Below, piece by piece: positions 6,436 through 22,991 of a stretch of DNA of 46,740 nt (the first letter of the stretch is position 1; the number at the start of each line of letters is the position of its first letter). Source of the DNA: a virus. The position numbers and the translations under genes were made by a program. The DNA lies in IMG/VR virus record IMGVR_UViG_3300023116_004895, positions 1 through 46,740 of that record, one strand, 5' to 3'. The notes under the pieces were generated by a model, which was given only the letters and a program-made list of their open reading frames with translations, had not been told where the DNA came from and did not search any database.

Positions 6436-6605
6436 TAGTACTCTACCGTTTGTACAACATTTTTTAATGTGTATTCTTCATCTCGTCTGTTGCGTCCTAA
6501 ATCATAACTAACATTGGATCGTTGCAATAGTTTATCTAATCTATTTAAGCGATCGATTGTTTCTTTAAGTTCTTCAACTAATTTTTCTGTACGTGGTTCT
6601 TTCAT
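6435..6605 (-). CDS. Small helical protein coupled to metK
   Basis: A 56-residue protein (MKEPRTEKLVEELKET...) with a predicted amphipathic helix over residues 8-32 and a polar tail. The start ATG at 6605 overlaps the metK stop codon (TAATG), which indicates translational coupling and is why I prefer it to an earlier in-frame start inside metK. Function unknown. Confidence 0.65.
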   Translation of the reverse strand: MKEPRTEKLVEELKETIDRLNRLDKLLQRSNVSYDLGRNRRDEEYTLKNVVQTVEY

Positions 6606-7693
6606 TACCAACCAATCCTTTCCCAAGGAACATCTTTGTTTCCAAAGTGCCCATATGTACAGTTACTACTATACTGTGTAAAGTTAAATAAGTCAAATCT
6701 ATCAATAATACCTTTTGGTGTTAAGTTAATATTGTTCTCGATAAACTTTTGAATACTGCGATTATGTCCATTTGAATCAACATATATACTTGTCGGCTCT
6801 TTAACACCTATAGCATATGATAACTGAATCTGACACCAATCTGCCATATCGTCTGCTACTACGTTTTTAGCAAGCCACCTAGCCATATAGGCAGCACTGC
6901 GATCTACCTTTGTTGGATCTTTACCACTAAAAGCACCGCCACCATGAGGAGCAAATCCGCCGTAAGTATCCACGATAATTTTACGTCCAGTAACGCCAGC
7001 ATCACCGTCAGGCCCACCAATAACAAAGTTACCGGTAGGATTAATATGCCATACAGTTTTATCATCTATTAAATCTCCTAGTACATCTCCTACAGCACTG
7101 CGGATAGGCATCTTTACACTTTCACCAAAACCTTCACGATGCTGTTGGCTTACAACTACTTGATCAATGCGCTTTACACGCCCGCCTTCGTATTCAACAC
7201 TTACTTGTGATTTAGCGTCTGGACCTAAGTATTCGTAACCGTCCTTACGCATATCACGCAAACGTTTTAGTATTTCATGCGAGTAGTAAATTGGTGCTGG
7301 CATATATGCTTCGTTGTCATTACATGCATAGCCAAACATAATACCTTGATCGCCTGCTCCAAAATCATCTGTACCTAGTGCAATGTCTCCGCTTTGAGCA
7401 TGAATTTCATTATAGATATTTAAATTATCCCAATGAAATCCTTCTTGCTCGTAGCCAATTTCTTTGACTTTATTGCGTACAATTTCTTTAACTTCGTCTT
7501 TGCTTACATTAAAGTTTTTTACTTCGCCTGCCAATGTTACATGATTGGTAGTTACAAGTGTTTCAACAGCAACACGAGTTGTTTCATCTCCTGCTGCTAA
7601 ACCAGCATCGACAAGTGCATCTGAGATTTGGTCTGCTACTTTGTCTGGGTGTCCATCGCTAACACTTTCGCTAGTAAAAATATAGTTGTTCAT
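6605..7693 (-). CDS. metK: S-adenosylmethionine synthetase
   Basis: A 362-residue methionine adenosyltransferase, slightly shorter than the bacterial enzymes (about 384). Diagnostic blocks are intact: SESVSDGHPDK (about 8-18), GAGDQGIMFGYA, the phosphate-binding GGGAFSGKDPTKVDRSAAY and the C-terminal YGHFGNKDVPWER. It makes SAM from methionine and ATP in the cytoplasm. The gene follows queE, whose product is a radical-SAM enzyme, with a 66-base gap, so the pairing suggests extra SAM supply for QueE or for methylation. No frameshift or missing catalytic block is seen, so it is probably active. Confidence 0.95.
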   Translation of the reverse strand: MNNYIFTSESVSDGHPDKVADQISDALVDAGLAAGDETTRVAVETLVTTNHVTLAGEVKNFNVSKDEVKEIVRNKVKEIGYEQEGFHWDNLNIYNEIHAQSGDIALGTDDFGAGDQGIMFGYACNDNEAYMPAPIYYSHEILKRLRDMRKDGYEYLGPDAKSQVSVEYEGGRVKRIDQVVVSQQHREGFGESVKMPIRSAVGDVLGDLIDDKTVWHINPTGNFVIGGPDGDAGVTGRKIIVDTYGGFAPHGGGAFSGKDPTKVDRSAAYMARWLAKNVVADDMADWCQIQLSYAIGVKEPTSIYVDSNGHNRSIQKFIENNINLTPKGIIDRFDLFNFTQYSSNCTYGHFGNKDVPWERIGW

Positions 7694-7759
7694 AAATGTT
7701 TCCTTATCTTTTCGTATTGCTCTTCGGTGTGTATTCCTTTACTATATTTGGCAACCTCT

Positions 7760-8656
7760 TTAAGTTCCCCAGGCATTTCCGAATAAGCTGATGTGGAGTC
7801 TAGGCGAGAACCTCCACCCTCGTTCCATACAGAGGTTCGCCACCTCTTGTACGTTGAGTGTGTATTCTTCACTACGCCCTCCAAGCGGCATGAGGTATAC
7901 AGGTACGTCCACGCCTGCTTCACGATAGGTATCGACAGCTCTACTAACTTCGTCAACATCGTCTTGATCAGCAACAACAAACTTAAAGTACATATCAGCG
8001 CCATCCACAAGGGAATACTCACGAGCAACATCAGACTTGATAGCATCACTCCAAGACTCGCCTGAAACTGAGAGTTTTGGGGAACACGAAAAAGTAACTT
8101 TAATTCTGTCATTGTTGTTGAGATAATTGTAGAAGTCGTTGTGTAACTGTTGTGTAGTGTTTGTTTCAATTGTGACATTTTTTAAATCCTGCATACCTGG
8201 GTGTTCAAATAACTCGACATATAAACGCTGCCAAGCAAGTAATGGCTCGCCGCCTGTAAGAATTAAGTGTACGTCCTGGCCGTTATCCATAGTCCATTTG
8301 CCTTCCGGCAACAAACTAAGCAAGTGTTCTACAACTTCGTCGACTGTTGCAAGTCGATTAAAGTCTTTAAACTCTGGATAAATGCTTGCATATGTATCAC
8401 AACCAGTGTGTACAATAGGCAAGTCTTCAAACTTTTCTGTTTTTTCTACAATACCATCATCTAGCAATGCTTTTACTTCTGCATTGTAACGATTGCCTTC
8501 TGCATGTTGTTTCCAGCGATCACCTACACTTTTATCAACACCAAAGTTCATACAACGAAAGTTACAACCAAAAGTACGTAGAAATACACTTGGTACTCCT
8601 ACGTATTTACCCTCGCCTTGTACACTATAAAATGCTTCGCTATATCTAAGTTTCAT
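7760..8656 (-). CDS. queE: 7-carboxy-7-deazaguanine synthase (radical SAM) with an insertion
   Basis: A 298-residue QueE. It has the N-terminal SVQGEGKYVGVPSVFLR, the cluster Cys 31 and 35 (GCNFRC), the SAM-binding ILTGGEPLL and the family ending SPRLHISLFGNAWGT. QueE converts 6-carboxytetrahydropterin to 7-carboxy-7-deazaguanine. The third cluster Cys is not in the usual CX3CX2C place: residue 38 is Phe, and the canonical CDTYA block appears at Cys86 after a 50-residue insertion, giving CX3CX50C. The start overlaps the upstream gene's stop. Expected partners in this window are folE, the queD-like gene and dpdA. Confidence 0.93.
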   Translation of the reverse strand: MKLRYSEAFYSVQGEGKYVGVPSVFLRTFGCNFRCMNFGVDKSVGDRWKQHAEGNRYNAEVKALLDDGIVEKTEKFEDLPIVHTGCDTYASIYPEFKDFNRLATVDEVVEHLLSLLPEGKWTMDNGQDVHLILTGGEPLLAWQRLYVELFEHPGMQDLKNVTIETNTTQQLHNDFYNYLNNNDRIKVTFSCSPKLSVSGESWSDAIKSDVAREYSLVDGADMYFKFVVADQDDVDEVSRAVDTYREAGVDVPVYLMPLGGRSEEYTLNVQEVANLCMERGWRFSPRLHISLFGNAWGT

Positions 8657-8852
8657 CTTCTTCTTTCTTTGTTATTTGCCATGCACCAGGAGTTATTTCT
8701 TCCCAGAGCAGTGTGTCTCCATCATCCCAACCAACTTGGTTGAGCATTTCTGGAGGCAGTTCAACATACAATTCTTTGTCTTTACCGTTTTCTTGTACAG
8801 TAACGACCCAGTTATTATCTCTTAGTTTACGATATGGTTCTTTAGTTGTCAA
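8646..8852 (-). CDS. AbrB/SpoVT-like small protein, probable TTG start
   Basis: A 68-residue protein whose C-terminal half (ELYVELPPEMLNQVGWDDGD) resembles the swapped-hairpin AbrB/MazE DNA-binding domain (LP...L...GW..GD.L). The TTG at 8852 is preceded by AGAGGAAG at good spacing and overlaps the upstream stop codon; the alternative is a GTG at 8876 further inside the upstream gene. It directly precedes queE and overlaps it by 11 bases. It might be a small regulator, but DNA binding is inferred only from the motif. Confidence 0.6.
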   Translation of the reverse strand: MTTKEPYRKLRDNNWVVTVQENGKDKELYVELPPEMLNQVGWDDGDTLLWEEITPGAWQITKKEEDET

Positions 8853-9588
8853 CTGTTTCTTCCTCTGCACGTGCACGTTTTTCTGCTAATTCGTCTTCGT
8901 AGTATTCCCATGCTTCGTCCCAATAATCATCACCTTCGTGCATATGACTATCTTCCCAACGTTTATTAAACCATGCTACTTGTGCATAATAACCCTTTCC
9001 ACGACTATCAACAAAATCATAATCTTGTTCGATTTCTTCTTTGTTATACCATAAACGTTCAATCATTTCGCCGTGATCTGTTTCTACACCAGACACCGCA
9101 ACCAAGTTAGGATCAAATTCTTCTCCGTCTTTGAGTTCTACAATCCAGCCGCCGAACTCTCCTTTTTCTGCACTATAAAACATTAGCACAGGAACACTAT
9201 TATCCTCTTCTTCTTCATCTTGTGGCTCTTCTTGTGTATAGCATTCACGACTGTATAATTGATGTGGATCGAAATCAATACGTTTGTCCCAATCAATTTC
9301 GTTATCTTCGTCTAGTTCGAACGCCATTAATTCAAGTCCGTTACTAGCTGTTTGGTGATGAATGTCGTCAATCTCGTACCAACTGTTATAGTACTCCATA
9401 TCCTCTAAAATGTCAGGACTGTCTGGATCGATGTCTTCGCCGTCTTGCCAATCTTCTAGTGCTTGCAAATGATTAATAAGTTCATCTTCGTCACGTCCTT
9501 GCCAGTATGTAACAAACTCTGGTGTTACTGTACCAATAGTCATTTCGCCGCCGTAGTTGCTACCACGAATATAAATTTTCTTACCCAT
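8842..9588 (-). CDS. Very acidic phage protein
   Basis: A 248-residue protein with a beta-like N-terminus (MGKKIYIRGSNYGGEMTIGT) and a strikingly acidic body: Asp/Glu dominate the segments around residues 45-80, 93-106, 119-130 and 215-245 (for example EEPQDEEEEDNS). It has no Cys-rich motif, signal peptide or membrane segment. Such charge could mimic DNA or bind basic proteins, which is an inference only. It overlaps the genes on both sides by a few bases within the early operon. Family not recognised. Confidence 0.7.
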   Translation of the reverse strand: MGKKIYIRGSNYGGEMTIGTVTPEFVTYWQGRDEDELINHLQALEDWQDGEDIDPDSPDILEDMEYYNSWYEIDDIHHQTASNGLELMAFELDEDNEIDWDKRIDFDPHQLYSRECYTQEEPQDEEEEDNSVPVLMFYSAEKGEFGGWIVELKDGEEFDPNLVAVSGVETDHGEMIERLWYNKEEIEQDYDFVDSRGKGYYAQVAWFNKRWEDSHMHEGDDYWDEAWEYYEDELAEKRARAEEETVDN

Positions 9589-9826
9589 TTTCTTTCTCCC
9601 ATAGTACTGTGTCCATGTGACTAATTAAGTTACTGAATCCGATTTGCATTACACTATAATCGTGTAGTTCTTCTCTGTATGCTTCAATTTCTGCTAGTTG
9701 GTCACCATCTAGTTCTTCTACATTATCGATACCGTAGTGTTCACACACATATTCATAAACATCGTCTGTAATATTACGTTCGTGGTTTTCTTCCCACTTG
9801 TGTATTCTATTCCATTCAAAACTCAT
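9581..9826 (-). CDS. Small acidic protein of unknown function
   Basis: An 81-residue acidic, mostly helical protein (MSFEWNRIHKWEENHERNIT..., ELDGDQLAEIEAYREEL). It overlaps the next gene's start by eight bases and the upstream gene by four. No known motif. Confidence 0.65.
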   Translation of the reverse strand: MSFEWNRIHKWEENHERNITDDVYEYVCEHYGIDNVEELDGDQLAEIEAYREELHDYSVMQIGFSNLISHMDTVLWEKENG

Positions 9827-9975
9827 TTTGACTTTCCTCTTTTGCCAACTTTAAATGTATATTCAATATCTTCAGGATCGGTTTTTTCGCCTGCTTCGCA
9901 TACAGTTACTTTATTCTTTTTTAACCATTCATCTATAGCTTTGTTTTCTTGATCTGATAGTTGTGGTCTACTCAT
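9823..9975 (-). CDS. Small conserved phage protein
   Basis: A 50-residue protein (MSRPQLSDQENKAIDEWLKK...) ending in a basic tail (KVGKRGKSK). The ATG at 9975 was chosen because AGGA lies about six bases upstream and the codon overlaps the end of the previous gene. The pattern of a helical start, VTxCExGExTDPxDIEY and basic end is one I associate with small cyanophage genes. Function unknown. Confidence 0.65.
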   Translation of the reverse strand: MSRPQLSDQENKAIDEWLKKNKVTVCEAGEKTDPEDIEYTFKVGKRGKSK

Positions 9976-10141
9976 CGCTATTCCTATGTTGTATGCAAAT
10001 TGCTTTTTCGTTATTTTCAAATGTTGCTTCTAAAACTGCACGTTCGATTGAACAACGGTTACCGTCTTGATATAACTCGTAGTGTGTAAGACGGACTTCA
10101 TCACTACCATAAACTGTGCTTAGTACTACTAGTATCCACAT
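9968..10141 (-). CDS. Small exported-type protein, 57 residues
   Basis: A short frame encodes MWILVVLSTVYGSDEVRLTH..., with a hydrophobic N-terminal segment, an aromatic strand and two Cys (NRCSIE and AICIQ). It resembles the 86-residue product at 1685-1945 in layout. The gene is coupled to the next by an eight-base overlap. Function unknown; possibly periplasmic. Confidence 0.6.
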   Translation of the reverse strand: MWILVVLSTVYGSDEVRLTHYELYQDGNRCSIERAVLEATFENNEKAICIQHRNSDE

Positions 10142-10145
10142 TGTG

Positions 10146-10307
10146 CTATCCTTGTACTGCTATATGCTGTGCTTCACGTTCGGCTGTTTCAACAATTTTA
10201 GCAAGTTCGTTTAGACGATCTGCTACTTCTCTAAAGTAACTGTTTCCGGTTGCACGAGCTTTATCATGTAACCACATTACCATTTGACTGTCTTTTTCAT
10301 TTATCAT
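10146..10307 (-). CDS. Small helical protein, 53 residues
   Basis: A short frame encodes MINEKDSQMVMWLHDKARAT... with a helical body (FREVADRLNELAKIVETAER). Its ATG overlaps the stop codon of the phosphoribosyltransferase gene (ATGA), a coupling typical of this operon. Function unknown. Confidence 0.6.
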   Translation of the reverse strand: MINEKDSQMVMWLHDKARATGNSYFREVADRLNELAKIVETAEREAQHIAVQG

Positions 10308-10858
10308 TTATCATACTCCCAAGGAAAAACAATCCAAGGATCGCCTTCGCTAGTATCCACTGTTTTCCAATTATAATTTACACCGTCAAAAATTGTATGT
10401 GTTTTTTCACACATTGTAGCAAAGCGAACGTTTTGTCCCCATACAGTGTCCCAATTTGGATGAGCAGGTAAGCAGTTCTTTTGCCAATCATCTTTAATCC
10501 AGTTAAAGGTAGCACCAGTATCGTTGATATCATCTACAATGAGTATATTCTTTTTCTTAGCAGGATCGCTTGTAGCTTTACTCCAAACATCATCTCTACC
10601 AATCTCGGATACATAACCAAATGCATCTTCTGCCATCCAACAATTTGATTCAGGACCATTGCCGCTACCGTCACGTAATCTAACATCTAGTGTATACATG
10701 TTAGCATCTATCAAATGACTAATACGCAGTGCTAATGGCAAGCCACCTCTGTTAAGTCCTACAATATAATCTGGACGCCACGCATCATTATACATTTGTA
10801 ACACAATGTCTGTGGCAGCATCATGCAAATCATTGTATGTGTAATATTGTTTGTTCAT
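10304..10858 (-). CDS. Phosphoribosyltransferase
   Basis: A 184-residue type I PRTase. The PRPP loop ILIVDDINDTGATF (about residues 104-117) and the N-terminal VGLNRGGLPLALRISHLID (about 33-51) are clear and resemble xanthine/hypoxanthine-type enzymes. It would join a base to PRPP in nucleotide salvage. The substrate cannot be read from sequence. Its place one gene below a queuosine-precursor transporter and folE raises the possibility of a purine or deazapurine substrate, but ordinary purine salvage is the simpler view. It overlaps neighbours by four bases on both sides. Confidence 0.85.
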   Translation of the reverse strand: MNKQYYTYNDLHDAATDIVLQMYNDAWRPDYIVGLNRGGLPLALRISHLIDANMYTLDVRLRDGSGNGPESNCWMAEDAFGYVSEIGRDDVWSKATSDPAKKKNILIVDDINDTGATFNWIKDDWQKNCLPAHPNWDTVWGQNVRFATMCEKTHTIFDGVNYNWKTVDTSEGDPWIVFPWEYDK

Positions 10859-11145
10859 TTCATACTTTCTATTGCTAGTTTTGCAGTTAGCATAACATTT
10901 TTATTTTTGAAAGTCAACACCAAATACTGCTCAAATGAACTAGAAGCGGTTTCTCCTGTTCCATACTCAAAACTTTTCCAAGTAAAATCTTTTCCATATT
11001 CTAGTCCGAGTTGTCCTAGTATATTGCTTACACGTGCAAGTGCATCGACAGGTGTATATCCTGCATTAAGAGCACCGCCCCCACCAGATAAATGATTGGG
11101 GCGGTTACTCAATTTGTTAACTGAAATTTCCAGTTTATTGTTCAC
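10855..11145 (-). CDS. Conserved protein of unknown function, start uncertain
   Basis: A protein of about 96 residues with a Gly run (SGGGGALNAGY) and an alpha/beta C-terminal half ending in AKLAIESMK. No ATG is available. I use the GTG at 11145, eight bases before the transporter's stop; a TTG at 11199 with a partial AGG site is the alternative and would overlap the transporter gene by 65 bases. It is coupled to the phosphoribosyltransferase gene. Function unknown. Confidence 0.6.
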   Translation of the reverse strand: MNNKLEISVNKLSNRPNHLSGGGGALNAGYTPVDALARVSNILGQLGLEYGKDFTWKSFEYGTGETASSSFEQYLVLTFKNKNVMLTAKLAIESMK

Positions 11146-11725
11146 GCAGTTTACCACTAATTGCTTTGAGTAATAAACCGTATGCTGGAAGGAATACAAT
11201 TAGACCTACTACAATTTTTAGTACTGTTTGTGATCCTGCAATCTCCATCCAATGTGCAGCCATATATTCATCTGCGCTGTTGTGGAAAGCAACTGCAAAG
11301 AATGTGTAACTGTCAATTACGTTTGCAACAACAGTTGATAGTGCAGGTGCAGCCCACCATGCTTTGTAGTTTTCACGTATCCATTGGAACACGTAAACAT
11401 CAAGCATTGCTCCAACTGCGTATGCAGTAGCACTTGCAAAACCAATACGTAGTGCAACACTCATTGGTGCGCCTTCTAGCATTACTACTAAAATGCTACC
11501 AATAATTGCTAGTGGATATGCATATGCAATTGTTGATCTTGCAGTTTCTTTACCAAGAAGTCTTACTGTAAGATCAGTAGCAACAATAACAATTGGGAAC
11601 GTAAACGCTGCCCATGTTAATTTAACACCAAAGATTTCTACTGGAATCCCTACTAGTGCGTTTGAAATAGTAATAACAATAACATGCAATAATGCAAGTT
11701 TCATTACTAAACTTTTATTTGTCAT
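11135..11725 (-). CDS. yhhQ: YhhQ-family queuosine-precursor transporter
   Basis: A 196-residue integral membrane protein with about six hydrophobic helices. The family block TFPIVIVATDLTVRLLGKET (about 42-61) and later segments (DVYVFQWIRENYK, NVIDSYTFFAVAF) are typical of the YhhQ/DUF165 family, which imports preQ0/preQ1-type queuosine precursors. The ATG at 11725 has AAGGAG seven bases upstream and is preferred to the TTG at 11740. It sits directly after folE. In a phage it would feed imported 7-deazaguanine bases to DpdA or bypass a missing synthesis step. Confidence 0.9.
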   Translation of the reverse strand: MTNKSLVMKLALLHVIVITISNALVGIPVEIFGVKLTWAAFTFPIVIVATDLTVRLLGKETARSTIAYAYPLAIIGSILVVMLEGAPMSVALRIGFASATAYAVGAMLDVYVFQWIRENYKAWWAAPALSTVVANVIDSYTFFAVAFHNSADEYMAAHWMEIAGSQTVLKIVVGLIVFLPAYGLLLKAISGKLREQ

Positions 11726-11736
11726 AATTTTCTCCT

Positions 11737-12423
11737 TCAACGTGGCGCAAATTCTTGTTGTAGTTTAATGTTGTCAAAGAATTCTTTCTTTGTTCCCATG
11801 TCTTTATTAAATGCGCCGTGCAGCACACTAGTTTGTGTTAAACTAGAATGTGCCATAATGCCTCTGTTTTCACAACAGCCGTGTGTAGCTTGTACGTATA
11901 CGCCTACGTCTCCGCTACCTGTAGCTTTCATGATTTCTTTAGCAATATCGTTAGCAAGTTCTTCTTGTAGTGTTCCACGTCTAGCACACCATTGTGCCAA
12001 ACGAGTGTACTTGCTAAGTCCAATCAGTTTTTGTGCAGCAATAATACCGATGTATGCTACACCAGTTACTGGTTGGTGATGATGCGAACACATACTACGT
12101 AGTTCGCTTCTAACAACTAGCATGCCTTCATAACGATCATTGCTGTCATTAGGGAAACTAGTTGCACTAGGGCGAGGATCATATCGTCCGCCCATAATCT
12201 CATTAATATACATTTTAGCAAGTCTGCGTCCGGTATCCATACTGTTTGGATCGTTGTGTCTATCGATTACCAAACTGTCTAGTACACTTTCGAACTTGCC
12301 TGTAAGTTCTTCGATAAGTTCTTCCTTATCACCATTTTGCATAACTTCGCTAATGTTATCACCTGCCCAATAGCGGATGCCTGCATCATCGAGTCGTGCT
12401 TTTAATTGTTCGCTTTTTGCCAT
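11737..12423 (-). CDS. folE: GTP cyclohydrolase I
   Basis: A 228-residue FolE, matching the bacterial length. The zinc ligands are C112, H115 and C183, with exactly the E. coli spacing (C110, H113, C181): SMCSHHHQPVTG and THGCCENRG. The GLSKYTRLAQWCARR block and QEELAN are also intact. It turns GTP into 7,8-dihydroneopterin triphosphate, the first step of 7-deazaguanine (and folate) synthesis. It opens an early operon from the promoter at 12464-12492 and is followed by the YhhQ transporter. With QueD and QueE it completes the route to 7-carboxy-7-deazaguanine. Confidence 0.96.
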   Translation of the reverse strand: MAKSEQLKARLDDAGIRYWAGDNISEVMQNGDKEELIEELTGKFESVLDSLVIDRHNDPNSMDTGRRLAKMYINEIMGGRYDPRPSATSFPNDSNDRYEGMLVVRSELRSMCSHHHQPVTGVAYIGIIAAQKLIGLSKYTRLAQWCARRGTLQEELANDIAKEIMKATGSGDVGVYVQATHGCCENRGIMAHSSLTQTSVLHGAFNKDMGTKKEFFDNIKLQQEFAPR

Positions 12424-12440
12424 TATATTCTCCTAGTTAT

Positions 12441-12456
12441 ACACGGCGAGACGTGT
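12441..12456 (-). promoter_or_regulatory. 5'-UTR hairpin of the folE operon
   Basis: On the minus strand ACACG-TCTCGC-CGTGT forms a 5-bp stem and 6-base loop between the early promoter and the folE ribosome site (AGGAGA). It would sit at the very 5' end of the mRNA and may stabilise it or affect translation. No riboswitch family is recognised. Confidence 0.45.
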
Positions 12457-12463
12457 TATATTC

Positions 12464-12492
12464 AATATACTTTTATGCAAAGTATTTGTCAA
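12464..12492 (-). promoter_or_regulatory. Sigma70-like early promoter of the folE operon
   Basis: Minus strand TTGACA (12492-12487), 17 bases, TATATT (12469-12464). Three other promoters in the window share the 17-base spacing and near-identical boxes. The -35 box lies in the last codons of the 66-residue gene upstream, so this is an internal promoter that restarts transcription for folE-yhhQ-queE-metK. Confidence 0.85.
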
Positions 12493-12673
12493 GCATTTCA
12501 AGGACATCGTCATACTTTGCAATTTCCATAATTTCCATTTCCATTGCTTCAATAATGTCCGGGTGTTCACCAATTCCTGTAGTATTATTTAGGTAAACTT
12601 CTACATTTGCCTTATGTTTATCTACGTGTCCTTTAGCATGACTACGTAGTGCTTCTAATAGAATCTCACGCAT
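12473..12673 (-). CDS. Small conserved T4-like marine phage protein
   Basis: A 66-residue helical protein (MREILLEALRSHAKGHVDKH...) with the conserved-looking centre NVEVYLNNTTGIGEHPDIIE. This pattern is familiar from cyanophage genomes; the function is unknown. It overlaps the glycosyltransferase stop by eight bases and closes the replication/modification operon. Confidence 0.75.
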   Translation of the reverse strand: MREILLEALRSHAKGHVDKHKANVEVYLNNTTGIGEHPDIIEAMEMEIMEIAKYDDVLEMLDKYFA

Positions 12674-13766
12674 TTACTATTTCCTTTCCTTCAATTTTAT
12701 CATATAATTTACTGCCACTAAAAAATTTGTTATGCAATTCTGCTGCATTACTATTTAGGTAATTACTATAGTTTTTATGATTTTGCATATACTTACGAAT
12801 ACGCTCTATAACTTTACCTTTATGTTTTTGATAACTATCCCATGACTCTGTCCATTCACTTGGATATCTAAATTCCTCATCATACATTTCTGTATAACTT
12901 AAACGATCTGGAACCATCGGAATAGCACCTACTAACATACCTTCAAATGCACTAATACCTAGTGTTTCTTGCAGGTTAGCACTAAACACAATCTTAGCTT
13001 CTCCTAGTATATTATGATATTCATTTTTAGTTAGTTGTTTTTCCTGACAAACAATAAACTCGTATTCAGTAAGTTCTTTTTTTAGATCATTAAAAATTTC
13101 TAACTGTTTCTCAGGAGCAAGCCTGTGTGGAAATACAATAGTGTCACGTTTTTCCATATTTTTATATGGAAGCATTGTATCACGTAAGTATTCCATTGGC
13201 CATCCTACAATACTAACGTTGTCTTGTTCCATAAACCATTCTGCAGGTTCGAGACCAAACATTGTTTTAAACTCTAGCAAATTCTCTGCAAATATTTTAG
13301 CATGAAACTCTGTAGCAAAGAAGTTGTCATCAAATACATGAAACATACTTTTCTCTGCATAACGTACCCAAGGTTTATTACCTATAAGTCTTCCTAAAAA
13401 ATCTTGAGGATCATAGCTACCAGCATGCCACATACCACCAATAGTGATTTGAACACCTAATAGCTCTGCCATATACTTGAGTTGGATAACTGTAGGATTC
13501 CAAGCATCTGTGTATAAGAAATAGTCTCCGTCTTTAATTTCTCCGTTGCAAAACATTTCGCCTATTGTTTCAAGTTGTTTAGACTTGTAAACATTAGTAC
13601 CGCCGAAATTAAGAAAAGCGCCAGGTGTAGTAGCTTGCGGAGTTTCACCTCCGCTAATAACTACTACATTATCTGTACGCTTTTGTAGTTGCTTAGGTAG
13701 ATAATCTTTCCACTGTTTAGTATATCGAGTATCTACTGCTTCGATGTCAACTATATATACAGTCAT
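12666..13766 (-). CDS. GT-B glycosyltransferase (GT4-like)
   Basis: A 366-residue glycosyltransferase. The C-terminal half shows VFPHRLAPEKQLEIF (about 212-226) and the nucleotide-sugar site QETLGISAFEGMLVGAIPMV with the EX7E arrangement. The N-terminal half is a less conserved acceptor domain. It moves a sugar from an activated donor to an unknown acceptor. Its stop and start codons are fused to neighbours (TAATG), inside the operon with dpdA, the oxidoreductases, the cytidylyltransferase and the QueD-like gene. The acceptor may therefore be modified DNA, as with T4 glucosyltransferases; modifying host surface sugars is the alternative. Confidence 0.85.
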   Translation of the reverse strand: MTVYIVDIEAVDTRYTKQWKDYLPKQLQKRTDNVVVISGGETPQATTPGAFLNFGGTNVYKSKQLETIGEMFCNGEIKDGDYFLYTDAWNPTVIQLKYMAELLGVQITIGGMWHAGSYDPQDFLGRLIGNKPWVRYAEKSMFHVFDDNFFATEFHAKIFAENLLEFKTMFGLEPAEWFMEQDNVSIVGWPMEYLRDTMLPYKNMEKRDTIVFPHRLAPEKQLEIFNDLKKELTEYEFIVCQEKQLTKNEYHNILGEAKIVFSANLQETLGISAFEGMLVGAIPMVPDRLSYTEMYDEEFRYPSEWTESWDSYQKHKGKVIERIRKYMQNHKNYSNYLNSNAAELHNKFFSGSKLYDKIEGKEIVNA

Positions 13767-14110
13767 TAAGCTGCCTTAGGTTGATACACACCTACGTGAA
13801 TTTTAAGTTTCTTAGGGCTACGTTCAGCACTAAGTTTTACACTTACATCGTAAGTAATTGCAGTGTCACGAATCATTCCTTGAATGTCGTAACTTTGAAT
13901 TAAATTAGCATATTTAAGATCACTTAAATATAAGTTAAACAAACGACGAACAGTTTCTTCACTGCCTCGATTTGTCGCTAGTACACCGTCATATGGTTCG
14001 ATAATCTTAATAAGATCCCACTTAACGTCATTTACACTTACACGCCCTTGACGAACGTCACGAATATCAGTTGCTACATTATTCATAGCTGCATGTTGCT
14101 CCGTTTTCAT
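13766..14110 (-). CDS. Conserved phage protein of unknown function
   Basis: A 114-residue protein; an internal ATG at 14086 (MNNVATDIRDVRQGRVSVND...) is an alternative start. It has a helical centre (EETVRRLFNLYLSDLKYANL) and a beta C-terminus (DVSVKLSAERSPKKLKIHVGVY). It overlaps the QueD-like gene by 32 bases (or 8 from the second ATG) and the glycosyltransferase gene through TAATG. I do not recognise a family. Confidence 0.65.
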   Translation of the reverse strand: MKTEQHAAMNNVATDIRDVRQGRVSVNDVKWDLIKIIEPYDGVLATNRGSEETVRRLFNLYLSDLKYANLIQSYDIQGMIRDTAITYDVSVKLSAERSPKKLKIHVGVYQPKAA

Positions 14111-14513
14111 TATCCTCGCTTACAGTAATTGTCATTTTGCGATTAGGATATTTGTTGTTAATTGCTTCTGCAAGATCATCACAAATCATCTCACAGGATT
14201 TAAAGTCAAGTTGCAGAGTATTTTCTGCATAAAGTTTTTCTAACCAGCGTTTAAACTGGATAAATTCAATGTCTCGATCGTCGTGGAATACTTCAATCTC
14301 AACTTTAAAATGAAACATATGACGATGAACATAACCTAAGAAACTTACGTCATACTCGTCACCAGTTGCAAGATTGGGATCATCTATTGCTGCAGGATAC
14401 TTGTGTAACCCTTCTTTTTGAAAGGTGACCCAAATATTTGTTTTTGTTTTATTCATTTTGTTATCTTCCTCACGCATACGCCGAAGCATATATTCGTAAT
14501 AACGTTCTTGCAT
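14079..14513 (-). CDS. queD: QueD-like 6-carboxytetrahydropterin synthase (T-fold)
   Basis: A 144-residue protein of QueD/PTPS size. The block YVHRHMFHFKVEIEVF matches the HxH zinc site and following strand of the family, DRDIEFIQFKRWLEKLY matches the GMVIDFxxLK region, and the end VSEDNENGATCSY sits where the substrate-binding Glu is found. QueD makes 6-carboxy-5,6,7,8-tetrahydropterin from dihydroneopterin triphosphate, between FolE and QueE. Similarity is diverged, so a related T-fold role is possible. Its ATG overlaps the upstream stop (TAATG), which fixes the start. Confidence 0.65.
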   Translation of the reverse strand: MQERYYEYMLRRMREEDNKMNKTKTNIWVTFQKEGLHKYPAAIDDPNLATGDEYDVSFLGYVHRHMFHFKVEIEVFHDDRDIEFIQFKRWLEKLYAENTLQLDFKSCEMICDDLAEAINNKYPNRKMTITVSEDNENGATCSYE

Positions 14514-14692
14514 TATTTGTCTTCAGTATCAGTATCAATAACTGATAGTTTTTTCTCAACTCTCTGCATGATTTGCATCATTTCCCATAACTTCCAATCC
14601 ATTGTTTTTGCAAGTTCATAAAACGATTCCATAGATGCTTCTTCAGTTTTTTCTTCTACAGGTTCGTCAATAACACGAATTTTCTTAACCAT
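14513..14692 (-). CDS. Small conserved marine phage protein, 59 residues
   Basis: A short frame encodes MVKKIRVIDEPVEEK... then a helix FYELAKTMDWKLWEMMQIMQ. The FYELAK..DWKLWEM pattern is one I know from tiny cyanophage genes. It is coupled to the genes on both sides (overlaps of eight bases and TAATG). Function unknown. Confidence 0.7.
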   Translation of the reverse strand: MVKKIRVIDEPVEEKTEEASMESFYELAKTMDWKLWEMMQIMQRVEKKLSVIDTDTEDK

Positions 14693-14867
14693 TTTTTATT
14701 TCCTTTTTAACGGTTTCAATTTGTTCTTTTAGTTTAAGTTTTTGCTTCTTAAGACTTTTTATACTTAATTCAGCATTAGTATGTTTATACAACTGTTCTA
14801 TTTCTTTGTCAAGTGTTCTGTGTTTCTTTTCCAAACTTTTTAACAGTTGTGTTTTTTCTCGGGGCAT
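14685..14867 (-). CDS. YdcH/DUF465-like coiled-coil protein
   Basis: A 60-residue protein with the DUF465 (YdcH) pattern: LEKKHRTLDKEIEQLYKH, then LKKQKLKLKEQI. These are short bacterial helical proteins of unknown function. It starts inside the 3' end of the cytidylyltransferase gene (59-base overlap) and its stop overlaps the next start. Confidence 0.65.
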   Translation of the reverse strand: MPREKTQLLKSLEKKHRTLDKEIEQLYKHTNAELSIKSLKKQKLKLKEQIETVKKEIKNG

Positions 14868-15273
14868 TTTCTACTCTTTCCCTTAGATCACTTGTACTGA
14901 ATCTGTGATCTCTTTTATTAAAGTACAGTTCAATACCACGCTTACGACAAATTTCTTTGCCAGTAAAATCTTTTTCACGATATTCTTCGCCTAGTATACG
15001 CATATCGATGTGATACATTGTTAAAATATCAATCAGATCTTGTTCAGTTTCATATGGGACAATTTCATCTACATATTCTACTGCGCTCAGTTGTGCATAA
15101 CGCTCAACTAAACTTTGCACAGGCTTATTTTTTTCACCTGGTCTATCAATAGTCGGATCGGTTTGGAGACCGACTATCAAATAATCGCAATGTTCTTTTG
15201 CTTCACGTAACATAATAATATGTCCTGCATGAAGCAAGTCAAATGTACTACATGTAAAGCCTACTTTAGTCAA
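14809..15273 (-). CDS. Cytidylyltransferase-like nucleotidyltransferase (TagD type)
   Basis: A 154-residue nucleotidyltransferase with the HxGH signature in CSTFDLLHAGHIIMLREAK (HAGH at about 16-19) and RFSTSDLRER, equivalent to the ISSTxI motif. The closest pattern is glycerol-3-phosphate/ADP-heptose-type cytidylyltransferases. It would make a CDP- or ADP-activated small polyol or sugar, perhaps the donor used by the neighbouring glycosyltransferase. It starts at the stop of the 169-residue gene (four-base overlap). The substrate is not determinable from sequence. Confidence 0.85.
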   Translation of the reverse strand: MTKVGFTCSTFDLLHAGHIIMLREAKEHCDYLIVGLQTDPTIDRPGEKNKPVQSLVERYAQLSAVEYVDEIVPYETEQDLIDILTMYHIDMRILGEEYREKDFTGKEICRKRGIELYFNKRDHRFSTSDLRERVENAPRKNTTVKKFGKETQNT

Positions 15274-15779
15274 ACTACTGTATCTCCTACATATTCACGC
15301 CAGTCTGTGTAGACTTTGCGTTTTTGTAATTCATGTAAATTATGACACCAAACACCTGGATTACTATGTCCCCATGTTGTATCATCTAGTTTAAGTGTTG
15401 CATTATAATTGAACTGTTTAATGTATGGAAGTTTAACACTTATCATACTAATATAGTTATCATATTCGTCAAACCCACATTCAAGTACATTAGATGCATG
15501 TTCTACACCAAAGTCCAATGTACACCAGTAACCTTCTTTAAGTAAAGGTGTAATCATATTTACCCAAAGTTCATATTCTTCCCAATTGTTAGGATTAAAA
15601 CTTTGACTTGTACCAAAGTACAAGTGTTTAATTTTATGTTCATCTGCTTTTTGTGCAATTTCTTTAGAATCTCGAACACCAACTACGAACAGTGTTTTTT
15701 CACCTTTCATGCAAGTGTTTTCAATTTCAGTACCAATAAAGTAAACTACGTCTTGGCGTTCGTCTGTATTTAATCCCAT
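15270..15779 (-). CDS. Conserved phage protein, possible small TIM-barrel-like enzyme
   Basis: A 169-residue protein. The segments TLFVVGVRDSKEIAQKADEH, IKHLYFGTSQSFNP, LKEGYWCTLDFGVEHA and NYISMISVKLPYI alternate strands and helices in a barrel- or flavodoxin-like way. Trp- and Cys-containing NPGVWCHNLHELQ lies near the end. I have seen similar genes in marine T4-like phages without a function. It lies between the cytidylyltransferase and the dehydrogenase, overlapping both, so it probably belongs to the same pathway. Confidence 0.65.
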   Translation of the reverse strand: MGLNTDERQDVVYFIGTEIENTCMKGEKTLFVVGVRDSKEIAQKADEHKIKHLYFGTSQSFNPNNWEEYELWVNMITPLLKEGYWCTLDFGVEHASNVLECGFDEYDNYISMISVKLPYIKQFNYNATLKLDDTTWGHSNPGVWCHNLHELQKRKVYTDWREYVGDTVV

Positions 15780-16663
15780 TTGATATAACCTCTGCTATAG
15801 CCTTCAGGTCGATTAACTGCATCTTCAAAGGCTTGTTTCCATTCATTATCACGATTATAACCTTTAGTCCAAATATTGTCAAGGTTTAATTTATTTGTTT
15901 CTTGCCATGTTACTGCTACATTCAATGCTTGTATAAAACTAACAGCACGTGGACTTGGAAAATGCATTGTTACATTATTCCATAACCAACTACTAAAATT
16001 TGTCATAACCATATCGGCTTTTTCGGCTGCCATAATTACAAGTCCGTTTGGTGCAACTTCTACTCTCATAAGTCTACTAGTATCACTTAAATCAATTACA
16101 ACATCGTATTCAGTTGTATCAACGTCAGACATAAGCAAATCGCCCCAATAGTCTGCATTACTATGTCCTACTACAGTAATATCGTCGTACTCTAGTTTGA
16201 CAATTTTCATTGTTTGATGTACAACACGAGCTAAAAACCCTGTACCTAATATAAGAACTTTGCCGCCTTCACGTCTGCGTAAGTCTTCTAAACTATTTAG
16301 AATTACATTAATACCACATGCAACAGGTTCTGCAATGTATTTAGGATCTAATTCAGGAACATTTACATAAGTGCCTTCTCGAGCAACATAGTAGTCTGCA
16401 TATGCAGGCTCTCCACGTGTTGCAACATACTCTCCTGTTGCTGTGTTGATACCTAATCCTTCGTGTCCGTGCATATGTGCAGGTAACAGCTGGAAGTCAC
16501 CTTGCATCATTGCAACATCACTGCGACACACTCCAGTCATAACTGCTTTGACTAGTATGTCGCCTTTATTTAATTCTGGGATTACGTAAGTAGTTTCATA
16601 AAATGCACCTTGCCCATCTGTAGCAAGAGCTCTTACAGTGTCGCCACATGTCGGTGTATCCAT
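15770..16663 (-). CDS. Zinc-type alcohol dehydrogenase-like (MDR) oxidoreductase
   Basis: A 297-residue medium-chain dehydrogenase, shorter than the usual 340-350. Visible are the catalytic-zinc Cys46 in TGVCRSDV, HGHEGLG (His67, Glu68), the EPVACGIN segment and the Rossmann motif LILGTGFLAR. The four-Cys structural zinc lobe is absent. I use the ATG at 16663, which has AAGGAG eight bases upstream, rather than the ATG at 16690. It overlaps the Gfo/Idh gene by 31 bases. It likely oxidises or reduces a sugar or polyol; the substrate is unknown. Confidence 0.85.
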   Translation of the reverse strand: MDTPTCGDTVRALATDGQGAFYETTYVIPELNKGDILVKAVMTGVCRSDVAMMQGDFQLLPAHMHGHEGLGINTATGEYVATRGEPAYADYYVAREGTYVNVPELDPKYIAEPVACGINVILNSLEDLRRREGGKVLILGTGFLARVVHQTMKIVKLEYDDITVVGHSNADYWGDLLMSDVDTTEYDVVIDLSDTSRLMRVEVAPNGLVIMAAEKADMVMTNFSSWLWNNVTMHFPSPRAVSFIQALNVAVTWQETNKLNLDNIWTKGYNRDNEWKQAFEDAVNRPEGYSRGYIKWD

Positions 16664-17493
16664 AGATCCATCTCCTTTTGATGTTTCCAAAAATTATCGT
16701 TTTTCCAATTATCAATTGCAGCGTTAATCATATTTTCATATGCACTTTCTGGACACAACGGACCTAGTTCAATCCGTTCGTCGTCAAAATAAATTGCAAA
16801 ATCATCTGTTGTTTTACTTCTCCAATTAGAGTATATCTCAAAATTTTGATATGTCAATAAACAATAGTCATCTACATCATATACACCATTTTCAATTACA
16901 TCACCATAGTCACTATCTGTTAGGTCATCTAATGTCCAGTTCTGTTTTAGAGATGTTTGTGTTCTAACTGAATGTTTCCAAGTTGGATATAGTAACTGAT
17001 AGATGCTCAGTAAGTGTGGAGTTAAGTCTCTACTGACACCGCCATATGCTAGTTTTTTATTAGTAAACCAGCTACCCGGACGTGGTACTCTGTTACTGTT
17101 AACCCAACAAATTTTTATATTTTCTGCGGAACTTGCACGTTGTTTTAGTTCTTCTATCTCTGCGTCTGACCATCTGTGTTGATTATTTTTGGTCATCATA
17201 AATCTTGTTGTAGGATTATATGTGCAAAGTTTATTCCATTGATCTACATTCTTAACACCGGGCTTTTCTACAAACACAATGTCACTAACTTTAGCTGCAG
17301 CATTTGCTAAATCATAATGTGTTGTATTAGGAGTACAAATGTGTGCAGTAGCAAATGACTGATCTTCTGGAATTTCAATATAGTCGGCATCTTTGTTGTA
17401 AGGATCTACGTATACAATATCCCAACCTAAGCGTTCGTATATGCTACCATATACTGCTTTACCAAATCCCATGCCGACTATAAGTGTTTTCAT
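16633..17493 (-). CDS. Gfo/Idh/MocA-family oxidoreductase
   Basis: A 286-residue NAD(P)-dependent dehydrogenase. The N-terminal Rossmann motif MKTLIVGMGFGKAVYGSIY, the ICTPNTTHYDLA segment and the VEKPG motif (Lys as catalytic residue) define the family; the C-terminal domain is beta-sheet-like and ends RHVATL. Such enzymes oxidise or epimerise sugars or cyclitols. The start overlaps the dpdA stop. Together with the MDR dehydrogenase, cytidylyltransferase and glycosyltransferase it looks like a small sugar-making set attached to the DNA-modification genes. Confidence 0.88.
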   Translation of the reverse strand: MKTLIVGMGFGKAVYGSIYERLGWDIVYVDPYNKDADYIEIPEDQSFATAHICTPNTTHYDLANAAAKVSDIVFVEKPGVKNVDQWNKLCTYNPTTRFMMTKNNQHRWSDAEIEELKQRASSAENIKICWVNSNRVPRPGSWFTNKKLAYGGVSRDLTPHLLSIYQLLYPTWKHSVRTQTSLKQNWTLDDLTDSDYGDVIENGVYDVDDYCLLTYQNFEIYSNWRSKTTDDFAIYFDDERIELGPLCPESAYENMINAAIDNWKNDNFWKHQKEMDLWIHRHVATL

Positions 17494-19007
17494 TATACTG
17501 CCTCAAATAAACTGTTAAATTGTGCACTAGTATTAACAGTTTTCTTTCCTACTGCACCACGTGTACCAACAACCATCATCCAAAGTTTTTCATGGTCATC
17601 AATCATTTTAAGTGCTTTTTCTTTATCGTCAAGTTCAAAGATACGTGCAATTACGTCTTTAACTTCTGTACGATCAAAACGGTTATCAACTAACATACTA
17701 GGATAATCTCCTGCATCATATGCTCTGTTTGCAGCTTGTACGCTATTGATATGTGTATAAGTGTTATGATTCATCATAAGCATATAAGCAAAACTATCCC
17801 AAGATGTTTTAGTTTCTGTGCCCATTCTATTTGTATCGCCTGGCGCATAACAACAAATATCATTTACTTTTAGACCTTCACTTAGTGGTGTAGGCATCCA
17901 CGTATGTCCGTACTGTGCACAATGTTGTGTTGCATAGTCATCATACGATGTAGTATTTGTTGCAAGTTGACGATCATCAAATGCATCTCCCATCATATAA
18001 CTCCACTTGCCATTATGATCTAGTCTATGTCCTGTGTAGAACTGTCCATTTGCAGTACATAAAAACGGACTTGCACAGTCAAATGTGATAGTAAAGTTTT
18101 CGTTATGATTCTTACGTACACCACGTTGTATTGCTGTAAGCACAAGTGCCCATTCTAGTTTACTTGTGCCCAAGAAGTGCATTACATCATGATAACCTTT
18201 TTCTAGCAATCCATCAAAACGTAGTTCAACTACACGTTTTAGTGCTAAATGAATATCACACATGTTTTGTCCACCCATTGCCCAGCCGTTAAAGTGTGCA
18301 TCTGGATATTTTTTAGGATCACAATAGTGTTTCATTTGCGAATACCAATCGTCTGCTTGTGCAAAGTTTTCACCTTGTAGTACGTTTAAGAACTTACAGT
18401 CACCGCTACGATTGTTAATAAAGTATTCGTTGTTTTCTTGTGTGCCTTCTACTGCTTCTTGATAGCTACCAATTTTACTTGCTGCAGCGCCATCTGGCGA
18501 ACGACTTACCCATGCTGGAATATCAAGTATCATTCCATAGTCCATAAAGGCATCCATCCAACGTAGTACGCCTTCACGTTTCTTTTGTGCTTGTGGACAG
18601 CCACTACCTTTGCGCCAGTCGCCTTCCCATTTGCCTTTACCAATTTGGAAGCCACCTGAGTCTCCTAGCAACCAACTAGCTGAACGATCTCTTACACGAT
18701 ATTGATCTTCACGGTACATATCTTTGTTTAAGTCTAGACTAGCGTGTCCTGCAGAGTGCAAACTCCATTTGTATTGCCATAGTCCTTGATTGTCTAACCA
18801 ATTGAGACTTTCAACACCGTTAGTTAAATGACTTGGGATACGATTTAAGTCAATGTAAGGAGTACCAGAGCCTTTTTTGTTTTCGTCAAATGGCTCTAGT
18901 CCTCGTCGCTGTCTACCCACAAACAGTGCATAGAATGTACTAAGTGCAGGCAAGAAAATAGCAAAGTCGTCTTGTCTGTCTGTTAAGTTTGTTGGTAGTT
19001 GTGTCAT
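17493..19007 (-). CDS. dpdA: DpdA-like DNA 7-deazaguanine transglycosylase (TGT family)
   Basis: A 504-residue TGT-superfamily protein. Visible motifs are LLGDSGGFQIG (Asp116, like the DSGGFQ of tRNA-guanine transglycosylase), LDIPAW (161-166), NVLQGE (208-213), GWAMGGQN (241-248), HFLGTSK (277-283) and FDCASPF with Asp310 in the position of the catalytic nucleophile. The usual CxCxxC zinc site of bacterial TGT is not obvious. Length and phage context fit the DpdA group, which swaps guanine in DNA for a 7-deazaguanine base. Its ATG directly follows the clamp stop codon (TAA-ATG), putting it in the replication operon. Confidence 0.88.
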   Translation of the reverse strand: MTQLPTNLTDRQDDFAIFLPALSTFYALFVGRQRRGLEPFDENKKGSGTPYIDLNRIPSHLTNGVESLNWLDNQGLWQYKWSLHSAGHASLDLNKDMYREDQYRVRDRSASWLLGDSGGFQIGKGKWEGDWRKGSGCPQAQKKREGVLRWMDAFMDYGMILDIPAWVSRSPDGAAASKIGSYQEAVEGTQENNEYFINNRSGDCKFLNVLQGENFAQADDWYSQMKHYCDPKKYPDAHFNGWAMGGQNMCDIHLALKRVVELRFDGLLEKGYHDVMHFLGTSKLEWALVLTAIQRGVRKNHNENFTITFDCASPFLCTANGQFYTGHRLDHNGKWSYMMGDAFDDRQLATNTTSYDDYATQHCAQYGHTWMPTPLSEGLKVNDICCYAPGDTNRMGTETKTSWDSFAYMLMMNHNTYTHINSVQAANRAYDAGDYPSMLVDNRFDRTEVKDVIARIFELDDKEKALKMIDDHEKLWMMVVGTRGAVGKKTVNTSAQFNSLFEAV

Positions 19008-19739
19008 TTACTTACTTTGTGCTGGAAGGATATATTCGTATACCGCTAGTCCATTGTCTACTTCAATCATTGCTGCGCCCATATCACTAAACTTCATAGT
19101 AATATCGCCTGTTAAGTTAAGAATATTCATAACTTCACTTACAGGATATTTCCAACTTTGATTTAAATTACCGCCAACGCCTGGCTGGAATACAAAGTTA
19201 CCTGTGTGACCACTGTCATCACCGAAGAAGAATTTTAGATCACCATCTTCTACTTTAGCAACAAACAAACTTTCTTCGCTATTAGCTTGTGCTTGCATTT
19301 TAAAGCGAGCAACACTTGCACTGTGTGGCTGTACTTCTACATCCCAATTAGCACCTTTAAAACGTACACTTGCTAGTTTTTCTTCCATTAGTTCTTTTTG
19401 CATAAAGCGGAAGTCGTTTTTAAAGTCGCCTGTTGCGTTTTCAAACTTCATACTAAACGGTTCTTGTTCACCGTTACGTTCACGTGTGTTAACAGTGATG
19501 TTTGCATTTTCCTTGTATTCAGGAATGTTAAGTAGAATGTTTAGTTTGCTCAAGTTAGGCATACCAAATGTGCCATCTAATCCTGGAATAGCACTCTTAT
19601 ACTTTGCTTTAACAACAACAAAGTTATTGTCGTCTTTAGCTTCGATTTCTGTTGCAGCACTGTCGCTAACAACTTTAACTGCTTCGATGTTTCCTACACC
19701 GTGTGTATGTTTTACAATATCGAGTAGATAATCTCTCAT
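19008..19739 (-). CDS. gp45: DNA polymerase sliding clamp
   Basis: A 243-residue T4-type clamp, against 228 in T4. Features are the N-terminal helix (MRDYLLDIVKHTHG), PGLDGTFGMPNLSKLNILLN, the central SMKFENATGDFKNDFRFM and the C-terminal DITMKFSDMGAAMIEVDNG. Three such subunits form the ring that tethers gp43 to DNA and, in T4, also activates late transcription. It follows the smr gene with a four-base overlap and touches dpdA. Late promoters in the window fit a clamp-dependent late system. Confidence 0.93.
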   Translation of the reverse strand: MRDYLLDIVKHTHGVGNIEAVKVVSDSAATEIEAKDDNNFVVVKAKYKSAIPGLDGTFGMPNLSKLNILLNIPEYKENANITVNTRERNGEQEPFSMKFENATGDFKNDFRFMQKELMEEKLASVRFKGANWDVEVQPHSASVARFKMQAQANSEESLFVAKVEDGDLKFFFGDDSGHTGNFVFQPGVGGNLNQSWKYPVSEVMNILNLTGDITMKFSDMGAAMIEVDNGLAVYEYILPAQSK

Positions 19740-19978
19740 ATGTTTTTCCTTTTTATTAACTGTACGTTATAACTGCCTTGTGTGCGAGTATTAAATTTGT
19801 AGTTTCTTACAAATCTATTTAGGTGGAGCCATGTTTCAATTTCGTTACGTATCATTCCTTGTCCACAAATAATTTCACAAGATTTATAGTTATCATAATA
19901 ACACTCTTGCAAGAACCTGTCAACCATTTTCCATGCAACATGTATATGATAACCATGTAAATCTAAACTTCGCTTCAT
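19736..19978 (-). CDS. Smr-domain protein
   Basis: An 80-residue stand-alone Smr domain: SLDLHGYHIHVAWKMVDRFL has the LDLHG motif, and CEIICGQGMIRNEIETWL has the IICGQG version of the IxHGxG motif. Smr domains bind or nick nucleic acids, as in the MutS2 C-terminus and in RNA-directed endonucleases. It sits between the polymerase and clamp genes, overlapping both, so it probably handles replication or repair structures. Activity is inferred from family only. Confidence 0.82.
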   Translation of the reverse strand: MKRSLDLHGYHIHVAWKMVDRFLQECYYDNYKSCEIICGQGMIRNEIETWLHLNRFVRNYKFNTRTQGSYNVQLIKRKNI

Positions 19979-22928: not shown

Positions 22929-22962
22929 ATGCTACTCCTTTTAATTTAGTTATATTGTTATG

Positions 22963-22991
22963 AATATAAGATAAAAAAAGCGTTTTGTCAA
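22963..22991 (-). promoter_or_regulatory. Sigma70-like early promoter of the replication operon
   Basis: Minus strand TTGACA (22991-22986), 17 bases, TATATT (22968-22963), about 35 bases before dsbA. The -35 box overlaps the loop of the terminator hairpin at 22976-22998, so the end of the lysis operon and the start of the replication operon share sequence. Confidence 0.9.

Follow-up and report, generated by a model that had tools for sequence, protein, structure and literature searches.

What base does a phage put into its DNA when it carries genes for the early steps of 7-deazaguanine synthesis, a DpdA-like transglycosylase and a glycosyltransferase (GT), and no QueC? The question is raised by the virus record IMGVR_UViG_3300023116_004895, the whole 46,740 nt of which (the window) was analysed, with the gene set at 7760-19007, all on the - strand. 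Guanine in the DNA of the phage is probably replaced by a less common base that resembles it. On balance the evidence favours a modification that does without QueC, is built on 7-carboxy-7-deazaguanine (CDG) and is finished with a sugar by the GT, which would hide the DNA from restriction. An initial annotation of the sequence had proposed a phage system for 7-deazaguanine in DNA from genes for FolE, QueE, a YhhQ-type transporter, a T-fold protein and a member of the TGT superfamily; all five are present where it placed them, on the - strand, and the system is well supported by the TGT motifs, by a profile placement nearest to DpdA2 and by the constant linkage to FolE and QueE. It had made no mention of the absence of QueC, nor of the GT, a purine-type phosphoribosyltransferase (PRT), a nucleotidylyltransferase, a family of 169-aa proteins and two dehydrogenases. 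With its lack of QueC and its GT, PRT and dehydrogenase genes, the system is a variant in its own right.

The DpdA-like protein carries the motifs DSGGFQ (D116), LDIPA (D162), VLQG, GG and FDCASP (D310), which align with the motifs of Tgt that presumably bear the catalytic aspartates. DSGG[FY]Q and D[CST][AS]SP are kept in 24/24 sequences of an alignment of its homologues (A1), and LQG in 20/24. The zinc-site cysteines of Tgt (C-x-C-x2-C...H) are missing from the window protein, which retains His414; a CxxC persists in L144 and L146, two distant homologues. Alone, the protein had no match in Pfam, PHROG, PADLOC or NCBIfam, and a sequence search of the PDB with it and with alignments A1-A4 gave nothing meaningful. 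Pfam TGT matched 4 of the 24 A1 homologues scanned at E <=0.1 (best E 2.2e-4), whilst five further families that matched one to three members (best E 0.016) were taken as noise. As a test for DpdA in phages Pfam TGT was rejected, with matches in 0/16 phage records; since 9g, nt-1 and CAjan, included as positive controls, were among the unmatched, the lack of a match was given no weight.

The protein was placed by ranking the A1 profile with hhalign against every open reading frame (ORF) of 220 aa or more from the fetched loci. DpdA2 of Vibrio phage nt-1 headed the ranking within the nt-1 locus, at a probability of 88, and E. coli Tgt was the better of the two ORFs in its own, at 36, with 9g DpdA outside the top three of the 9g locus. 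Adding five phage relatives to A1 raised nt-1 DpdA2 to a probability of 98.0 (E 1.9e-13) and Tgt to 94.4 (E 9.5e-8), a modest difference between single-sequence targets with few references, and with the further addition of nt-1 and BUCT the value for Tgt rose to 95.9 (E 5.5e-9); against 9g DpdA the profile gave only 0.3-0.5. The assignment to the TGT superfamily is thereby borne out, with nt-1 DpdA2 scoring above E. coli Tgt. Judged by its sequence, the protein is a TGT-superfamily enzyme whose nearest relative among the references compared is phage DpdA2, and which lies outside phrog_10773: that family is matched by DpdA of nt-1, ACP17, X1 and BUCT and by none of the DpdA proteins of the window, PA5oct and Vibrio phage 2.275.O. 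Its subfamily also includes the Pseudomonas PA5oct group, Sinorhizobium phage Phosso and 2.275.O. As further members phiST (profile probability 21-31), RHph_I1_18 (0.3-15), D479 (6-10) and 9g were rejected as too weak. The DpdA gene is annotated 'hypothetical protein' in 13/13 records examined.

The neighbours of this gene were counted by tblastn in those 27 of 38 DpdA loci that reach at least 8 kb past the DpdA start (11 dropped), with 19 left after dereplication. The GT, the T-fold protein, the 169-aa family and FolE are present in 27/27 of these loci and in 19/19 after dereplication; QueE is present in 9/27, many loci ending short of it. Relatives of the GT are encoded on at least 588 stretches of public viral contigs, and from the best 80, which are uneven in length, 34 loci with 5 kb on both sides were kept (46 dropped). 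All 34 have DpdA, the T-fold protein, the 169-aa family and (by profile) the PRT, with FolE in 33/34 and QueE in 32/34; across all of the best 80 the counts are 71 for DpdA, 77 for the T-fold protein, 74 for the 169-aa family and 72 for the PRT. Where a polymerase locus has at least 6 kb downstream (n=26), DpdA, GT and T-fold genes occur together in 22 and none of the three in 4.

The T-fold protein had been described as QueD-like, and for the fold this stands. Its predicted model (pLDDT 87.9) has E. coli QueD as its best PDB matches (E 2.8e-4), H37, H63 and H65 are retained and an SCE motif is found in 18/18 relatives. The Cys shortly before HxH in QueD is catalytic, and a Cys precedes HG[HY] in 13/13 canonical QueDs compared; the relatives of the window protein instead read FL-x3-HRH in 18/18, with Leu at the position of the Cys and Cys there in 0/18. 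With the PTPS/QueD model matching neither this protein nor anything else in the 46.7-kb window record, its sequence is not that of a canonical QueD. Of the FolE-QueD-QueE set put forward as the source of CDG, the window therefore has FolE and QueE. A separate canonical QueD is encoded in 7/12 T-fold carrier records (PTPS/QueD in 9/14 records, with 2.275.O and the L102 record showing no T-fold gene in the stretch seen), and PTPS/QueD in 3/10 further GT-carrying records, many of the records being fragments. PA5oct (NC_071039.1) has two PTPS genes besides the T-fold gene, at 169215-171944, near FolE (168.6-171.9 kb).

The QueC model had no match in the window record, which may itself be a fragment. 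It scored over its cut-off in 2/14 records, 2.275.O (E 1.7e-51) and G001 (partial, E 2.4e-7), and in 0/10 further GT-carrying records, all possible fragments, one of which had a match below the cut-off. Among 15 named records QueC is over the cut-off in 1/10 T-fold carriers (D479) and in 5/5 chosen phages of 7-deazaguanine type that lack the T-fold gene (9g, nt-1, CAjan, CP220 and 2.275.O), a near-exclusion with a Fisher p of 0.002 amongst phages that are not independent, the five comparison phages being hand-picked rather than random and CP220 having no demonstrated DpdA. In G001 a short PP-loop protein whose C-terminal Cys motif resembles that of QueC is encoded far from the cluster (L151, 1138-1698).

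A standard preQ0/preQ1 system, in which DpdA inserts a precursor that comes from host QueC or is imported by YhhQ, has in its favour the YhhQ gene of the window and the occurrence of the same DpdA subfamily in Vibrio phage 2.275.O together with QueC, a QueF-annotated gene and YhhQ. However, 2.275.O has no GT or T-fold relative (tblastn 1e-5; locus by profile), QueC and the T-fold protein nearly exclude each other among the named phages examined, and YhhQ is found in just 3/19 dereplicated DpdA loci and 1/34 GT loci. The transporter of the initial annotation is thus of the type it named, by its PF02592 match, and no more than a minor accessory, and a standard system is improbable.

The case for a sugar depends on the GT. 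Pfam Glycos_transf_1 leaves the window protein alone unmatched, but matches 13/21 of its homologues at E <=0.1 (best 4.1e-6), and the E-x7-E motif is kept in 20/21, the remaining one having 8 residues between; on these features the product is read as a GT-B glycosyltransferase. DpdA, GT, T-fold protein, FolE and QueE are all present in the unrelated named phages PA5oct, ACP17, X1, BUCT-ZZ01 and Phosso, the cultured phage Paride carries the GT and FolE is found in 10/10 named T-fold carriers. The host genera of this shared core are Pseudomonas (PA5oct/Paride), Acidovorax, Xanthomonas, Synechococcus and Sinorhizobium, with other parts of the set less widespread. The arrangement differs from phage to phage: PA5oct has DpdA-GT-T-fold and then PRT-QueE in a cluster, with Gfo-MDR-169aa, in the same order as in the window, 27 kb from DpdA-GT; ACP17 has QueD-FolE-169aa-DpdA2-GT-T-fold-QueE; X1 and BUCT have FolE, DpdA2, GT, T-fold and QueE, with a PRT additionally in BUCT; and in Phosso GT-T-fold-FolE-QueE is distant from its own DpdA. 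Contigs of metagenome-assembled genomes (MAGs; L289 and L290) have GT and T-fold genes beside a 9g-type DpdA (30-33% identity), and the GT is found in all with three kinds of DpdA, those of the window type, of phrog_10773 and of the 9g type. The gene content points to a constant core of FolE, QueE, DpdA and T-fold protein, plus the GT in most carriers examined, the rest being variable.

A second GT-B-like protein lies right before DpdA2 in BUCT-ZZ01 (L164, 5001-6344; Glyco_trans_1_4 E 3.4e-5, below cut-off). In Xanthomonas phage PhiXhv-12 (L175, 4669-8755) a GT relative adjoins a Gfo/Idh/MocA gene (PF01408), its neighbours being annotated as glutamine-fructose-6-phosphate aminotransferase and deacetylase, and a distant DpdA relative is encoded elsewhere in the genome. 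In the isolate genome of Aurantimonas sp. VKM B-3413 (L284, ~6000-9420), DpdA, T-fold and GT genes occur with a Vut_1-like gene (below cut-off), and the 16 kb seen gave no match to FolE or QueE; this may be a prophage or island that takes up its precursor from outside. Several MAG contigs with archaeal or diverse bacterial assignments (L275-L283) carry the same gene cluster and for that reason look like mis-binned phage contigs.

The variable part includes the PRT and the nucleotidylyltransferase, each in 16/27 DpdA loci (the latter in 21/34 GT loci), and the Gfo and MDR dehydrogenases, which occur together in 22/27 DpdA loci, never one alone, and in 17/19 after dereplication. The nucleotidylyltransferase is nearest to HldE-C, the heptose-1-phosphate adenylyltransferase/glycerol-3-phosphate (G3P) cytidylyltransferase type (NCBIfam rfaE_dom_II E 4.5e-23, below cut-off), and the MDR protein matches NCBIfam alcohol and polyol dehydrogenases, all below cut-off. 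Enzymes of such sugar- or polyol-metabolism type might be expected if they and the GT were surface-sugar genes that stand beside a DpdA operon by chance. Yet the association of the GT recurs across unrelated phages and differently arranged genomes, and that of Gfo with MDR recurs too, among named phages in the PA5oct group only; a chance neighbourhood is hardly credible.

The PRT raises a different idea, that CDG is converted to a free 7-deazapurine nucleotide, serving as effector or polymerase substrate, or that the TGT-like enzyme acts on tRNA. It is present in 34/34 GT loci, and TubE is described as an enzyme that joins CDG to phosphoribosyl pyrophosphate (PRPP) (PMC6112128). A DpdA-like gene is nevertheless found in the same 34/34 loci and its profile favours nt-1 DpdA2 over E. 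coli Tgt (98.0 vs 94.4), which leaves a nucleotide or tRNA role very improbable. Three cellular or MAG contigs (L286, L290 and L294) were considered as T-fold clusters lacking DpdA and rejected, as DpdA-like genes of other subfamilies adjoin the T-fold gene; the argument for a pure small molecule that they had offered was dropped for this reason. One of them, from the actinomycete Paractinoplanes ferrugineus (L286, 7204-14480), has other-subfamily DpdA-like, T-fold, FolE, QueD, QueE and PRT genes, along with genes reading like sugar-nucleotide enzymes.

The sequence shows the gene identities, the active-site motifs and the linkage, with no QueC in what was searched, and from these we infer the following route to a sugar-bearing base. 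What the T-fold protein does, the sequence of the reactions, DNA as their target, the final base, the nature and position of its sugar, and the gain for the phage all belong to that inference. FolE, a QueD encoded by the host or by the phage outside the window, and QueE would convert GTP to CDG, and as there is no QueC there would be no preQ0. The T-fold protein, which has a pterin/deazaguanine-binding fold, may act on CDG in the place of QueC, the likeliest reaction being removal of the carboxylate to give 7-deazaguanine. The DpdA-like enzyme would swap guanines in DNA for the CDG-derived base, and the GT-B enzyme would attach a sugar or polyol, with an activated donor supplied by the nucleotidylyltransferase and dehydrogenases where present, or by the host. 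Guanine set free by DpdA is most likely salvaged by the PRT, which could alternatively act on CDG in the manner of TubE. DNA so modified would escape restriction enzymes.

A number of points weigh against this route. No carrier phage has known DNA chemistry, and QueD is absent from the window. Weak QueC-family matches occur in G001 and D479 (over cut-off, partial) and in G002, G004, G016 and X1 (below cut-off). Decarboxylation of CDG would leave C7 with no hydroxyl or amine on which an O- or N-glycosyltransferase of the usual kind could act; as only C7 itself would be free, a C-glycoside, a different T-fold reaction or a sugar elsewhere would be needed. The GT gene is not constant, since its relatives in L043 and L045 are ~20% identical and have no E-x7-E motif, and a relation to T4 beta-glucosyltransferase was rejected (hhalign probability 0.34). 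Gfo and MDR are found in just 7/34 GT loci, Gfo is restricted to 11 PA5oct-group records among 50,697 phage-collection records and the 169-aa family is present in 2/10 named T-fold carriers (PA5oct and ACP17). Finally, phiST, RHph_I1_18, Bakedbeans, Ahp1 and D479 carry the T-fold gene without a detected GT.

These last phages, together with FolE and QueE without QueC, would suit a plain small 7-deazaguanine in DNA, either dCDG or, after decarboxylation by the T-fold protein, dDG, with the GT serving something else. If so, it would be harder to see why DpdA, T-fold and PRT genes are kept in 34/34 GT loci and why the GT is found with DpdA of three kinds, and a plain base is unlikely. The glycosylated base remains the favoured reading. 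In its fullest form, a widespread hypermodification in which a glycosylated 7-deazaguanine takes the place of guanine, with the T-fold protein replacing QueC, a new DpdA subfamily, a dedicated GT-B enzyme and donor genes in some phages, it can be argued for and against about equally.

The coordinates of the features are collected in Table 1. From DpdA (19007) to QueE (7760) neighbouring genes mostly overlap by 1-65 nt, with gaps of 49 and 125 nt. The two early operons that had been proposed are not established, and their timing has no support other than this overlap; promoter-like sites number 59 in the window vs 59.2 in shuffles, chance level overall. The five best of these sites, which agree with the consensus at 11-12 of 12 positions, are all on the coding strand (12464-22991, -). 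The radical-SAM cysteines of QueE (C31, C35 and C86) are kept in 11/11 aligned homologues, an insertion displacing the third, and NCBIfam QueE models match the window protein only below their cut-offs. The model of the 169-aa protein gave no confident PDB fold match (best E 0.064), and the family is unrelated to the QueE, DpdA or GT profiles. A MetK-like gene lies 66 nt from the gene for QueE, which uses S-adenosylmethionine (SAM), and is present in 3/27 DpdA loci and 1/19 after dereplication; a supply of SAM for QueE is possible.

Table 1. Genes of the putative modification system and a neighbouring gene, with positions in the window
Feature	Position	Strand	Basis
MetK-like S-adenosylmethionine synthetase	6605..7693	-	named from reading the translation, without family search
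QueE, 7-carboxy-7-deazaguanine synthase	7760..8656	-	phrog_2076 E 5.3e-52
Purine-type PRT	10304..10858	-	PF00156 E 6.3e-14; PRPP motif ILIVDDINDTG
YhhQ/Vut_1-type transporter (accessory)	11135..11740	-	PF02592 E 2.6e-24, over cut-off
FolE, GTP cyclohydrolase I	11737..12423	-	PF01227 E 1.1e-37
Putative GT-B (GT4-like) glycosyltransferase, 366 aa	12666..13766	-	Glycos_transf_1 in homologues; E-x7-E; linkage
T-fold protein (phrog_17812), QueD-like fold without catalytic Cys	14079..14513	-	model; PDB match; alignment A4; linkage
Nucleotidylyltransferase	14809..15273	-	PF01467 E 3.5e-16
169-aa family, DpdA/GT-linked	15270..15779	-	alignment A3; model pLDDT 89
MDR/alcohol-dehydrogenase-type oxidoreductase, 306 aa	15770..16690	-	PF08240 E 8.9e-6
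Gfo/Idh/MocA-type NAD(P) oxidoreductase, 286 aa	16633..17493	-	PF01408 E 2.6e-7; EKP and D-x3-H motifs
Putative DpdA-like DNA-guanine transglycosylase, 504 aa	17493..19007	-	TGT motifs; TGT matches of homologues; hhalign to nt-1 DpdA2 and E. coli Tgt

The system is judged to be real, and the glycosylated base is a testable prediction that may concern a base not seen before. Sugar-decorated pyrimidines protect the T-even phages, and a sugar-decorated purine in phage DNA would, to our knowledge, be new; if it exists it would bear on restriction, CRISPR and modification-dependent nucleases. As environmental viral contigs commonly carry the set, and so do the isolated Paride/PA5oct phages, which grow on P. 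aeruginosa PAO1, the prediction can be tested directly. It also gives functional hypotheses for phrog_17812, the 169-aa family and the GT, families previously without a function. In the papers covered, which included neither the 2024 MMBR review nor Cui et al. 2023, no link was found between the GT, PRT or 169-aa family and phage 7-deazaguanine. The words searched gave no deazaguanine, queuosine or glycosyl mention in the MIJ3 and Callisto papers and no deazaguanine or DNA-modification mention in the Paride paper. A 2026 review of jumbo phages refers to deazaguanine incorporation as predicted for some of them, with no GT in the words searched (PMC13282480).

That phage DNA can contain 7-deazaguanines, and that these are protective, is already known, with dPreQ0 in the DNA of phage nt-1 and a phage lacking QueC, Bipper, for which CDG was suggested as a possible base (PMC6884629, Hutinet 2019). 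The nt-1 system (FolE, QueD-like, QueC and DpdA2) has FolE and a TGT-like DpdA in common with the window, at a profile probability of 98, but nt-1 has QueC and no T-fold or GT relative was found in it, and the window DpdA is outside phrog_10773; that family itself occurs in ACP17, X1 and BUCT alongside the T-fold protein and the GT. The tubercidin pathway (PMC6112128) combines CDG with a purine-type PRT, as does the window. It leads, however, to an antibiotic, and its proposed decarboxylase TubF is UbiD-type, whereas the candidate in the window is the T-fold protein. In phage T4, hydroxymethylcytosine is glucosylated and it is likewise a GT-B enzyme that decorates a modified base. This parallel is functional only, the base being different and sequence similarity to the beta-glucosyltransferase lacking (hhalign 0.34). 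Phage pathways without QueC are also close to the window: Cui and colleagues reportedly found dCDG and dDG in phages in 2023, together with a CDG decarboxylase, DpdL. The window likewise has no QueC, CDG would be the last common intermediate, and Cellulophaga phage phiST shares the T-fold family phrog_17812 with it; to such pathways the window adds the GT, the PRT, the 169-aa family and the dehydrogenases.

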